Assembly (NCBI RefSeq): GCF_000018545.1
Contig: NC_012586.1
Location: forward strand, 2,232,001-2,296,000
Direction of reading: 5' to 3'
Origin: Sinorhizobium fredii NGR234
GTDB taxonomy: Bacteria; Pseudomonadota; Alphaproteobacteria; Rhizobiales; Rhizobiaceae
DNA: 64,000 nucleotides
Part shown: positions 27,671 to 39,611 of the stretch, one piece after another
How positions within the stretch are numbered: position 1 is the first letter of the stretch
Layout: each line of letters begins with the position of its first letter
Program-made: the position numbers and the translations under genes
Notes under the pieces: generated by a model
Seen by the model: only the letters and a program-made list of their open reading frames with translations
Told to the model about the DNA's origin: nothing
Databases searched by the model: none

Positions 27671-29014
27671 TCAGCAGGCAGCCGGCCAGCCGCTGCGGAT
27701 CATCGAGAAATAGTCGTCCAGCCCGATCTGGCCGCCCTTCAACGCCACCTCGATGCCGTCGACCAGCGGGTTGGCGCTGTGGGCGGTGCAGAGCGGCGAA
27801 CCCGGCGACTGCGGCAGCGGCAGACGCAGGGTTAACGCGTCGACCGAGAGCTGACCGAGCGCGTGGCTCGAGGTGTCACCGCCGGCGATCACGGCGCGGC
27901 GAAGGCCGGCCCGTTTCACCAGTTCCTTCAGAAGCAAGCCGAGCCGCTCGCCGATCCGATGGCGTGGTCCCTCCTCCAGGCGGATGGCATCTCCGCGATC
28001 GCTCGAGGGTCCAAGCGCCGTATGGAGAACGACGCTCCGGCCGGTGGCGAGAACCGCCAGGCCGCGCGCTATCGCATCCTCGAGTGCGGCGCCACCTTCC
28101 GCCGCGGCAAAGGCAACCGGGTCGAGGCCGATCCCGTCAAAACCGTTCTGGAGGGCGTGGCGGATCTGCCGCTCCGTCGTCGGCGAGACGCTGCCGGAGA
28201 CGACGGCGATCCGATCGACAGGGCCTGGCGCCTTGAAGGTAGGTGGCGCCCCGTCGAGCAGGCCAAGCCGGCGCCACTCGCGGACGAGCGCATATTCGAG
28301 GCCCGAGGAACCGCAGGCGAACTGGCCGCCGGAGCTACGCTTGCGCCAGAGCTGCCGCCCGACTGCCGCCTGGCTTTCGGCGCCGGCGACGTCGAGAAGG
28401 ACGATGTCGTTTCCTTCGGCAAAGGCGAAATCCGTGGTCGCGTTTGCATCCGCCGACGCGAGTTGGGCGATGTCGACGAGCCCCGTCTTCAAGGACGTCT
28501 GTCGCGACAGGTGCCGTCGGATGTCTGCTTCATCCATCGGCGTTACCGGATGGCGGCTCATCACCGGATGGCGGTCGATGCGATAGGTTTCGCCCCGAAA
28601 GGCCGCGAAGAGATTGCCGAAGCTCGTGTAGCGTCGGATTTGCGGTGCGCCGAGCACCAGCGGCACCGGCGCCTTGCCGAACACCTCGCGGCCGATCTCG
28701 ATCGCCTTGCCGATATTGCCGACCGCCGGGCTAGAATCGAAGGTCGAGCAGACCTTGTAATGGGCGATCTCGGCCCCCAGCGACTTCAGCCAGACAAAGG
28801 CGGAAGGCAGATGTTCCGCCATCCAATCGGGTGTCTGGCTGCGGCTCGTGCCGGCAAGGCCGAAGGCACGGCAATGGGCGAAACGTTCGAGCAGCGCGGG
28901 CTGCGGAATCCTGAGGAACAGCGCCGTCTCGACGCCCTGCGAGGCGAGCGCCTCCATGACGTCGGTGGAGCCGGTCAGGTCGTCGCCGTAGTAGCTCAGC
29001 AATGGTGTCTGCAT
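27671..29014 (-). CDS. oiaK: 3-oxo-isoapionate kinase OiaK (DUF1537 family)
   Basis: Four-carbon acid sugar kinase family protein, 447 aa, from ATG 29014. The N-terminal DUF1537 domain begins LLSYYGDDLTGSTDVMEAL; the C-terminal nucleotide-binding domain contains VVSGSVSPTTERQI and IAGGDTSSHALGQL. Family members phosphorylate four- to six-carbon acid sugars. Next to a RuBisCO-like protein and the apionate genes, the expected reaction is ATP-dependent phosphorylation of 3-oxo-isoapionate at C4. It lies 31 bp after the RuBisCO-like gene on the same strand. Confidence 0.85.
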   Translation of the reverse strand: MQTPLLSYYGDDLTGSTDVMEALASQGVETALFLRIPQPALLERFAHCRAFGLAGTSRSQTPDWMAEHLPSAFVWLKSLGAEIAHYKVCSTFDSSPAVGNIGKAIEIGREVFGKAPVPLVLGAPQIRRYTSFGNLFAAFRGETYRIDRHPVMSRHPVTPMDEADIRRHLSRQTSLKTGLVDIAQLASADANATTDFAFAEGNDIVLLDVAGAESQAAVGRQLWRKRSSGGQFACGSSGLEYALVREWRRLGLLDGAPPTFKAPGPVDRIAVVSGSVSPTTERQIRHALQNGFDGIGLDPVAFAAAEGGAALEDAIARGLAVLATGRSVVLHTALGPSSDRGDAIRLEEGPRHRIGERLGLLLKELVKRAGLRRAVIAGGDTSSHALGQLSVDALTLRLPLPQSPGSPLCTAHSANPLVDGIEVALKGGQIGLDDYFSMIRSGWPAAC

Positions 29015-29045
29015 GCGCGGCCTTCCGTGGCTCGACTCAAGGGTA

Positions 29046-30302
29046 TCAGGTGCCGTTGCCGTCGGCGAATTTAATGAGCGACTGAGCGAGCTCGGGATGA
29101 TCCCTGGCATAGTCGGCAAGCGGGATACCGGCGACCGCCGCCTCCCAGGCCTGGCGAACCGCCCTCACCCCGGCGCCGGCGCCGCCAGGATGGCTGACAA
29201 TGCCGCCGCCGCACAGATAAAGCAGATCGGTCGAGCCGCCGGTCCGGGCATAGGTCTCGGGCGCCTGGCCGCCCCATTGGCCGGAGCCGACGACCGGCAG
29301 CGGACAGTCGCGCTCGGAAAACAGCGGCGTGCCGGCCGCCTTGAAGGATTTGACGAAGCTCTCGTCCGGCTCCCAATATTTGACGCGGATGCCGTTGATC
29401 TGGAACTGGTCCACGCCGATCAGCCGCCAGAACTGCTGCCAGACGGAGAATTCCATTCCGAGGCCGCCGTGGCGGGTGAGGATATCCCAGCCATTGCGAT
29501 GCGCATGAAGCACGATGCCGGAGCGCTTTCGCAGGAAGGCAACGCCCCCCATGCCGATCGAATTGATGTTGACGACCCCCGCATTGCCGCCCGCCTCAAC
29601 GACGAGATCATGGTTGCGCATCATCTCGTCCGGGTCTGTGTGGGAGATGCCGAAGGCGTACATCACCTTCTTGCCGGTCTTCTGTTCGTGGTCGAGGATC
29701 TTCGGCATGATCGCGGCGATCCGCGCCTTCAGCGGCGAATAGGCCGGGCTCATCAGCTTCTCGTCGTCCTTGATGAAATCGACGCCGGAGGAGAGCAGTT
29801 CACCCACCAGTGCAGCTGTCTCCTCCGGCCTCAGGCCCAAGGCGGGCTTGACGATGGTGCCGATGATCGGGCGTTTCTCAACGCCGGTCAGCCGGCGGCT
29901 CCCGGGGATGCCGAACTGCGGTCCGGGATGGGCACGGCCGAACTCCGGCGGCAATTGCATATCGACGATGCGAACGCCGGTCATGCCCTTGATCGAATAG
30001 ACGCCGGCTATGGCGATGGTCATCAGCGCGGCAAGGTCCGTGCCGACCGCATCGAGCGGAAAATCGATGTCCGCCTCAGCCCGGTTGAAGCGCTTCGCCC
30101 CGCCGGCCTCCTCCGGCCAGGAAGGGCGGTCGCCCGGTTCCAGATGCCTGATGGCAACGACCCGGGCCGCTACGCGGGCCTTCAGCTCTTCGGTCTCGCC
30201 CGGGACGAGCACGAAGGTCCCGGTCGACTGATCGCTTGCGATCTTCGCCGCCAGCGCCTCGACGTCGCCGGGGGTCTCGATGCGGTAGGTGATGCGGATC
30301 AC
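29046..30302 (-). CDS. oiaX: RuBisCO-like protein, 3-oxo-isoapionate-4-phosphate decarboxylase
   Basis: Form IV RuBisCO-like protein, 418 aa. The large-subunit barrel is evident: TIVKPALGLRPEE (Lys152, the counterpart of the RuBisCO proton-shuttle lysine) and GVDFIKDDEKL (Lys178, Asp180, Glu181, the metal/carbamate site, all kept). The phosphate-binding glycines YLCGGGIVSHPGGAGAG are also present. In known apiose pathways such proteins either decarboxylate 3-oxo-isoapionate 4-phosphate to L-erythrulose 1-phosphate (OiaX) or split it by transcarboxylation/hydrolysis to 3-phosphoglycerate and glycolate (OiaT). OiaX is favoured because it is the form I associate with rhizobia, but sequence reading cannot settle it. 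First gene of the oiaX-oiaK unit, with the shared motif 43 bp upstream. Confidence 0.85.
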   Translation of the reverse strand: MIRITYRIETPGDVEALAAKIASDQSTGTFVLVPGETEELKARVAARVVAIRHLEPGDRPSWPEEAGGAKRFNRAEADIDFPLDAVGTDLAALMTIAIAGVYSIKGMTGVRIVDMQLPPEFGRAHPGPQFGIPGSRRLTGVEKRPIIGTIVKPALGLRPEETAALVGELLSSGVDFIKDDEKLMSPAYSPLKARIAAIMPKILDHEQKTGKKVMYAFGISHTDPDEMMRNHDLVVEAGGNAGVVNINSIGMGGVAFLRKRSGIVLHAHRNGWDILTRHGGLGMEFSVWQQFWRLIGVDQFQINGIRVKYWEPDESFVKSFKAAGTPLFSERDCPLPVVGSGQWGGQAPETYARTGGSTDLLYLCGGGIVSHPGGAGAGVRAVRQAWEAAVAGIPLADYARDHPELAQSLIKFADGNGT

Positions 30303-38720: not shown

Positions 38721-38783
38721 CTGTTCTCTCCTCCCAGGTTGAGAAACGGCCGGAGTTGCCCCATGCCCTCCGGCTTTCGTGGA

Positions 38784-39611
38784 TCAGGTGATGCGGCGAA
38801 TGCTGTCGGCGATTTCCTGCGGCTCGAAGACGCGCTTCCAGTCGTCGCGCATCAGCATCGGCTTGCCGAACTCGATCGCCTTGTTGCAGGCGTCCGAGAA
38901 GACGCCCTCGACCTCTTCGAAGATCACCGCGCCGAGCACATTCATGTGGCCGAGCAGGAAATCGCGCGCCGCTTGCCTCGGCACGCCGCGGGCGACGCAT
39001 TCGTCCATCGCCTCGCGCATGACGACGAGCAGCGAGGCGCAGACCGTCTCCGACAGGCCGGGCTCGAGAAGCGCCATCTGCTCGACCGTCACCCGGTGCG
39101 AGCGCATGACCGGCGCCCAGATGAGCTTGGCGATCTCCTCGCCCTTGGCGTAGTCCGCCTCCGGTCCCTGCATCAGCGCCGAGACGATGTGCTGCTTGGC
39201 GGCGATGCCGCCGAAATGATCCTTGCGCGCGGCCAGCTCCGTCTCGTCGTTGAAGATCGGCGGGTGGCAGGGATGGGTGACGAAATAGGTGAGGTCGTCG
39301 CGCCGCGGCAGGTGACCGGCAAAGGGCGCAGCCGCGTCGAGAACGACTACCATCGTGCCGGGTTTCAGCCTGTCGACAATGCCGGTTGCCACCTTGCCGA
39401 TCGCCGTGTCCGGCACTGCAAGGATCACGACCTCCGCACCGTCGAGCGCGGTGTCGAGGGAGACCGTCTCGAGCCCCAGCTCCTTTGCGAGGCGCGCTTT
39501 GCCGATCTCGCTCACCTCGACATGGCGAACGTCGAAGCGCGAGCCCATTAGGTTCTTGGCCAGCCGGCAGCCCATCTTGCCGCCGGCGCCCAACAAGGCA
39601 ATCGAAGTCAT
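38784..39611 (-). CDS. apnO: D-apionate oxidoisomerase ApnO
   Basis: NAD-binding protein of 275 aa. The N-terminal Rossmann domain has SIALLGAGGKMGCRLAKNL; the C-terminal half is helical, of the 6-phosphogluconate/ketol-acid-reductoisomerase-like type, with THPCHPPIFNDE and MRSHRVTVEQMALLEPGLSE. In known apiose pathways ApnO oxidises D-apionate and moves a hydroxymethyl group to give 3-oxo-isoapionate. First gene of the apnO-importer-apsD-apnL unit; the shared operator motif is 42 bp upstream. Sequence alone would allow another hydroxyacid dehydrogenase role; the neighbourhood makes ApnO likely. Confidence 0.82.
   Translation of the reverse strand: MTSIALLGAGGKMGCRLAKNLMGSRFDVRHVEVSEIGKARLAKELGLETVSLDTALDGAEVVILAVPDTAIGKVATGIVDRLKPGTMVVVLDAAAPFAGHLPRRDDLTYFVTHPCHPPIFNDETELAARKDHFGGIAAKQHIVSALMQGPEADYAKGEEIAKLIWAPVMRSHRVTVEQMALLEPGLSETVCASLLVVMREAMDECVARGVPRQAARDFLLGHMNVLGAVIFEEVEGVFSDACNKAIEFGKPMLMRDDWKRVFEPQEIADSIRRIT

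Follow-up and report, generated by a model that had tools for sequence, protein, structure and literature searches.

A probable D-apiose uptake and catabolism regulon of the OiaX branch in Sinorhizobium fredii NGR234

A 64,000-nucleotide stretch of the Sinorhizobium fredii NGR234 genome carries ten intact genes, at 27671–39611, that very probably form a regulon for the uptake and catabolism of D-apiose by the oxidative OiaX branch. Plant cell walls contain apiose, an unusual branched sugar. The whole stretch (hereafter the window) is C2:2232001–2296000 of a 6,891,900-base genome in three contigs, of which C2, the second replicon, has 2,430,033 bases and C3 has 3,925,702. The cluster consists of two enzyme and transport operons and one divergent regulator gene. 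An initial annotation, made from the letters of the window, had read it as a near-complete apiose island with a RuBisCO-like protein (RLP), an RbsB/A/C-type importer with a DUF2291 lipoprotein, and a GntR/FCD regulator. All ten open reading frames are present and match the expected families, every enzyme named there was found, and D-apiose catabolism remains the best reading. What was computed directly is membership in families, conservation of the genomic context, the operator sites and co-occurrence. Among D-apiose clusters of the known OiaX-branch kind, this one is ordinary and well conserved.

From these data we infer the catalytic steps in NGR234 and the ligand of the importer. The receptor and its ABC importer would take up apiose, as the close similarity of the receptor to a Rhizobium etli protein (below) suggests. 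ApsD would oxidise apiose to apionolactone, which ApnL would open, and ApnO would then oxidise and rearrange apionate to 3-oxo-isoapionate. OiaK would phosphorylate this intermediate, and OiaX, the RLP, would decarboxylate the resulting 3-oxo-isoapionate-4-phosphate. The OiaX product is L-erythrulose-1-phosphate, and the next two isomerases are LerI and DerI; in NGR234, a TIM-family isomerase and an RpiB-family DerI, both supplied in trans, may carry the product on to erythrose-4-phosphate.

The RLP scores 781 bits against the NCBIfam OiaX model NF042437 (cut-off 700) and misses the type III RuBisCO model TIGR03326 (207.6 bits, cut-off 497.45). The KDDE stretch described in the initial annotation is kept, within a retained F-I-K-D-D-E. 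Residues K152, K178, D179, D180 and E181 are invariant in all eight aligned rows; K152 corresponds in the alignment to the conserved lysine of type III RuBisCO, and K178–E181 to its K-D-D-E stretch. Two RLP classes are found beside ApnL in related genomes. Among 199 sampled genomes of the family, ApnL lies within 20 kb of 33 of the 35 RLPs that exceed the OiaX cut-off, as against 9 of the 32 RLPs that score 380–454 bits (48 of 49 ApnL rows were used, one 45-bit fragment being left out). Four RLPs of the other class, 43–44% identical to the window RLP, form a separate, fully supported clade, and the window RLP falls outside it, with the rest of the OiaX rows. A protein of the other class scores 440 bits on the OiaX model. 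The first tree contained 105 rows, from which L058_fam and L065_fam, two wrongly framed rows on very long branches, were dropped. The careful tree used 43 of the remaining 103 rows, then 39 rows without the four of the other class, and leaves out one of four chromosomal-type rows. We therefore place the window protein in the decarboxylase (OiaX) class rather than in an OiaT-type class, which we take the other class beside ApnL to be. The RLP call of the initial annotation is thereby narrowed to one class, whose window member probably removes CO2 rather than fixing it.

The other-class regions with ApnL (L071–L074) also hold a second ApnO-like protein (51–52% identical; PF16896 in L072), which is adjoined by an AP_endonuc_2 TIM-barrel gene in L071, L072 and L073.

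The position of the isomerase genes bears on an alternative in which the apiose route is the same, and the RLP is an OiaT-type transcarboxylase/hydrolase that turns the 4-phosphate into glycolate and 3-phosphoglycerate, so that no tetrulose isomerases are needed. Neither isomerase is encoded in the window cluster or in the OiaX-class regions L075 and L076, and most OiaX loci as fetched lack them as well (a LerI-type gene is present in 26 of 80 and a DerI-type gene in 25 of 80). Moreover, both RLP classes serve such clusters, since the other class also occurs with ApnL. Against an OiaT-type activity stand the OiaX score and the tree position given above, the isomerase genes inside a third of the OiaX loci, with no match in the four other-class regions searched, and the distribution of DerI, which exceeds its cut-off in 17 of 17 genomes of the genus with OiaX and ApnL versus 3 of 16 others. 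We consider the OiaT-type alternative very unlikely. For the decarboxylase pathway, TIM and RpiB isomerase genes lie inside the R. etli cluster, and the NGR234 genome has two DerI genes over the cut-off of 240 (252.5 and 245.6 bits, at C2:1771.5 kb and C3:718.8 kb), each adjoining a TIM-family gene. Both tetrulose-phosphate isomerases are thus available from genes elsewhere in the genome, the first of them assigned by context. The description of the island as near-complete holds for the enzymes it named, and the two isomerases that follow OiaX are encoded outside it.

The remaining genes of the cluster recur with oiaX. A search with an RLP alignment left 80 named loci. Among these, at identity thresholds of 30–60% that we set ourselves, OiaK and GntR are each present in 77, ApsD in 71, ApnL in 65, the permease in 64, and the ATPase, receptor, DUF2291 protein and ApnO in 63 each; 13 of the loci end at contig edges, and some clusters are split. 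Because the same genes recur across these loci, their grouping is not due to chance. Within the genus, 17 of 33 genomes have both OiaX and ApnL and 16 have neither (G226 is counted among the 17 on a 148-residue OiaX fragment, and the ApnL of G205 is split and does not reach its cut-off). The window ApnL passes its own curated model, NF049900, at 858.2 bits (cut-off 750). ApsD is 68% identical to 5uhw of Agrobacterium radiobacter, presumably an ApsD itself, and ApnO, a PF16896 protein, gives 436 bits to 5t57 and is 84% identical to its R. etli counterpart. We predict the functions of the kinase, the dehydrogenase and ApnO from their orthology to members of the R. etli cluster and to the Agrobacterium structure.

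The regulator belongs to the NCBIfam NanR subfamily NF003011 (363.7 bits, cut-off 260), a name also given to its R. etli counterpart. No sialic acid genes were recognised beside either regulator gene, and the name NanR is probably a misnomer for the window protein. A count of 10-mers over the 220 bp upstream of apnO and the intergenic regions between oiaX and gntR gave a single motif common to both sets, the 14-base CTGGTATRATGAGT. It is found exactly in 63 of 78 oiaX/gntR regions and 33 of 63 apnO upstream regions, the window included, and in none of the base-shuffled controls. When the window and L077–L080 are excluded, these 14-mers continue to rank with the most frequent (58 of 73 and 26 of 60). 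Only two exact copies occur in the 6.89 Mb genome, at window positions 30345 and 39653, where 0.009 are expected. Within the genus, the 17 of 33 genomes that contain CTGGTATRATGAGT are precisely the 17 that have ApnL and OiaX (reversed control, 0 of 33). The 37 sites in these genomes include 18 within 34–90 bp of an OiaX match, one of them a remnant, and 15 at or near apnO, of which those in the window, L188 and L190 were read directly and the other 12 are assigned by their distance of 6.2–6.5 kb from ApnL. One further site precedes a second ApnL–OiaK pair (L192), and three lie elsewhere (two in G201 and one in G217). We predict that the GntR/FCD protein binds CTGGTATRATGAGT and thereby represses both operons, and that a pathway metabolite would release the repression. 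With one regulator and two operator copies, both operons form a single predicted regulon.

Only exact sites were used, because mismatched ones are at background: with up to two mismatches, there are 10 operator sites genome-wide versus 11 for the reversed control, and with up to three, three sites within the window where 2.5 are expected. A one-mismatch site at C3:974890 (L191) has no match to the cluster proteins nearby, and no perfect palindrome was widespread in the intergenic regions (the most frequent reached 7 of 78 and 6 of 63). Some of the outlying exact sites have gene contexts of their own. In L192 (G210:C8), the second ApnL–OiaK pair is divergent (48% and 56% identical) and has its own exact copy. 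L189 (G201:C2) holds an OiaX remnant, a full-length gntR, a truncated gntR copy and two operator copies, which suggests a local duplication broken up by other genes. In L186 and L187 (G201), exact copies precede a SBP_bac_1 sugar importer gene and an Abhydrolase_10 gene; these sites are possibly further regulon members or chance occurrences.

Several observations weigh against the apiose assignment. ApnL and OiaX pass their curated profiles; the kinase has OiaK (NF042436) as its best family, at 463.7 bits and so below the cut-off of 700, as is the R. etli cluster kinase (473.2), and ApsD and ApnO pass no curated NCBIfam model. NCBIfam names the TIM partners of DerI only as triose-phosphate isomerase, for which reason the first isomerase is assigned by context. 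Three of the 78 oiaX/gntR regions, and 10 of the 63 upstream of apnO, differ from the operator at three or more positions. Finally, species now called Brucella, formerly Ochrobactrum, carry the same gene set (L096, L104, L114), and an RLP cluster of Ochrobactrum has been assigned to D-hamamelose (Kim 2018, as cited in PMC8914248). In the hamamelose pathway, the RLP reportedly acts as an oxygenase on a hamamelose-derived phosphate.

The hamamelose assignment raises the possibility that the same chemistry serves another branched or rare sugar, such as D-hamamelose or ribose. The window receptor belongs to the ribose family and is 85% identical over 286 residues to 4ry0, a structure that bears the title of a ribose transporter protein; 4ry0 and 5ibq are the R. 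etli CFN42 RHE_RS26605 protein, encoded in the same kind of cluster. ApnL and OiaX, on the other hand, pass apionate-specific cut-offs, and the R. etli receptor was reportedly co-crystallised with apiose (5ibq); we regard another substrate as very unlikely. D-apiose as the substrate of the cluster would give S. fredii NGR234, a model rhizobium, a testable apiose diet, and the analysis names the operator and the isomerases needed for the test. Among the open-licence papers listed, and in PMC3732241 by term search, we found no report of apiose growth by NGR234 or of the operator, although this does not prove that there is none.

On the minus strand, the genes run apnO, receptor, DUF2291, ATPase, permease, apsD and apnL, followed by oiaX and oiaK; gntR separates the two blocks and lies on the plus strand. 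All ten open reading frames show the third-position GC bias of real genes. The starts of oiaK (29014), DUF2291 (37714), gntR (30467), apsD (34209) and apnL (a GTG at 33178, overlapping the apsD stop) are our choices of likely starts, all internal to the longest open reading frames. Among plasmids, the cluster DNA is 91–92% identical to the five best S. fredii records and 88% identical to a sixth. Elsewhere in the window, a minus-strand run at 22675–26589 encodes an ABC ATPase, an EamA exporter-like protein and a DAO-type FAD oxidoreductase, and is apparently an unrelated locus for amine or amino acid use.

Features of the predicted D-apiose regulon (window coordinates)
Feature	Position	Strand	Description
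oiaK	27671..29014	-	DUF1537 kinase, predicted 3-oxo-isoapionate kinase; PF07005+PF17042 (SBD_N + NBD_C)
oiaX	29046..30302	-	RuBisCO-like protein (RuBisCO_large), predicted 3-oxo-isoapionate-4-phosphate decarboxylase; NF042437
Operator copy 1, CTGGTATAATGAGT	30345..30358	+	~42 bp before oiaX start
gntR	30467..31189	+	GntR/FCD, predicted repressor of both operons; PF00392+PF07729, NF003011
apnL	31244..33178	-	D-apionolactonase; NF049900; no Pfam family matched
apsD	33175..34209	-	Gfo/Idh/MocA dehydrogenase, predicted D-apiose dehydrogenase
Importer permease (RbsC-like, BPD_transp_2)	34459..35523	-	PF02653
Importer ATPase (RbsA-like, two ABC domains)	35523..37073	-	PF00005, 2 stretches
DUF2291 periplasmic lipoprotein of importer	37070..37714	-	PF10054, 219.8 bits; lipobox-like ALAGC in translation
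Sugar receptor (RbsB-like, Peripla_BP_4), predicted D-apiose-binding	37779..38720	-	540 bits to 5ibq and 4ry0
apnO	38784..39611	-	PGDH_C Rossmann protein, predicted D-apionate oxidoisomerase; PF16896, 249.6 bits
Operator copy 2, CTGGTATGATGAGT	39653..39666	+	~42 bp before apnO start

The analysis also points to a chromosomal regulon in which the OiaX model matches without ApnL. The chromosomal RLP scores 761.5 bits (cut-off 700), is 68% identical to the window RLP and lies inside the OiaX group in the tree, where its joining point is unsettled and a long-branch warning remains. Close copies (96–100%) occur in 4 of the 33 genomes of the genus (G000, G206, G208 and G221), including G221, which has neither ApnL nor the plasmid-type OiaX. 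All four share an 18-kb block with an ABC importer, two aldo-keto reductases (AKRs), a metallo-beta-lactamase-fold protein, the RLP, a DUF1537 kinase, two BKACE proteins, an SDR and two GntR-FCD genes; domains were scanned in G000, and the other three genomes were compared by sequence matches. Farther along the contig, all four have transketolase, aldolase, DeoR-like, TIM and RpiB genes and an ApnO paralogue 81–82% identical to the window ApnO, the first three being recognised by matching starts in the other three genomes. G000, the NGR234 genome, also has an FBPase gene there, which the gene finder used did not call in G208.

This chromosomal region has a motif of its own, AGGTATRAGGTNWKACC. 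With at most one mismatch, it has six sites in the genome, all within C3:688737–734498, and the reversed control has none. Sites precede a TRAP importer operon (DctP, DctQ, DctM), the ABC–AKR–hydrolase–RLP operon, a chemoreceptor gene (MCPsignal) and apnO2, and others lie between the SDR and kinase genes and between the AKR and transketolase genes. This clustering is partly by construction, because the pattern was written from five of the six sites; independent of it are the lack of any other match in 6.89 Mb and the site at C3:688737, before the TRAP operon, which was unused in building the pattern. We tentatively suggest, as a plausible reading that falls somewhat short of probable, that G000:C3 at about 688–735 kb (L208, L068, L069, L195) may encode a second, separately regulated isoapionate pathway. 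The metallo-hydrolase and the AKRs look as if they stand where ApnL and ApsD would be. Speaking against such a pathway, the DUF1537 kinase is only 34% identical to OiaK, and we know of no role for BKACE proteins in the known apiose route. The chromosomal ApnO promoter contains a two- or three-mismatch copy of the window operator in G000, G221 and G208, not in G206, and random 200-bp windows from the same loci reach at most two mismatches in 7 of 2000 cases and at most three in 54 of 2000. Cross-regulation between the two regulons is possible, and we do not claim it. If the second pathway is real, there is a second, non-orthologous way into the catabolism of branched pentonates, and the regulons of plasmid and chromosome serve as backups for one another. 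The points that deserve following up are the operator, the isomerases supplied in trans and the chromosomal counterpart.

Comparison with known systems begins with R. etli, where an RLP has been studied by mutation. RLP mutants (rlp) of R. etli CFN42 and R. phaseoli CIAT652 fell short of full growth in some biotin-free conditions, and the authors noted ribose-transport neighbours of rlp (PMC8914248). It was proposed that the protein fixes CO2 or substitutes for biotin-dependent carboxylation. The CFN42 rlp gene is RHE_RS26630 (L174:13020–14315), annotated oiaX and located inside the apiose-type cluster, which suggests that the published mutant is a mutant of an apiose decarboxylase. Because rlp is the oiaX of the R. 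etli cluster, the proposal of a role in carboxylation deserves a second reading. As printed, the 14C values are not a simple case of reduced fixation in the mutants (PMC8914248), the window RLP is far below the cut-off for Form III RuBisCO, and its genomic context is catabolic; we hold a CO2-fixing role for it to be extremely improbable. Activities of the RLPs of A. radiobacter K84 and X. autotrophicus are cited in PMC6302742.

The predicted operator can be compared with that of E. coli NanR, a member of the same GntR-FCD NCBIfam subfamily. The NanR sialic acid operator is (GGTATA)3 (PMC8012715), whereas the window operator has the form GGTAT-N4-AGT and shares the GGTAT core; no sialic acid genes were recognised in the window cluster. 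Carter et al. 2018 reportedly described D-apiose catabolic pathways with the ApsD–ApnL–ApnO–OiaK–OiaX set; relative to these, no new step was found in the window. Rhodobacteraceae strain LCG007 grows on D-apiose and has a cluster with five enzymes of the same names (PMC11747546); it belongs to another family than the window strain, and the likeness is one of enzyme names alone. The closest parallel is the R. etli CFN42 p42f cluster RHE_RS26580–RHE_RS26635 (L174). It has the same ten gene kinds as the window, with an RLP annotated oiaX, a receptor (the 4ry0/5ibq protein) about 85% identical to that of the window, and a gntR divergent from oiaX, and its apnO-to-apnL and oiaX–oiaK blocks are each in the same order as in the window. 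In R. etli, however, TIM and RpiB genes lie between oiaK and apnO in one long run, with DhaK/DhaL downstream, whereas NGR234 has the two blocks the other way round, with gntR between them and the isomerase pairs elsewhere in the genome.

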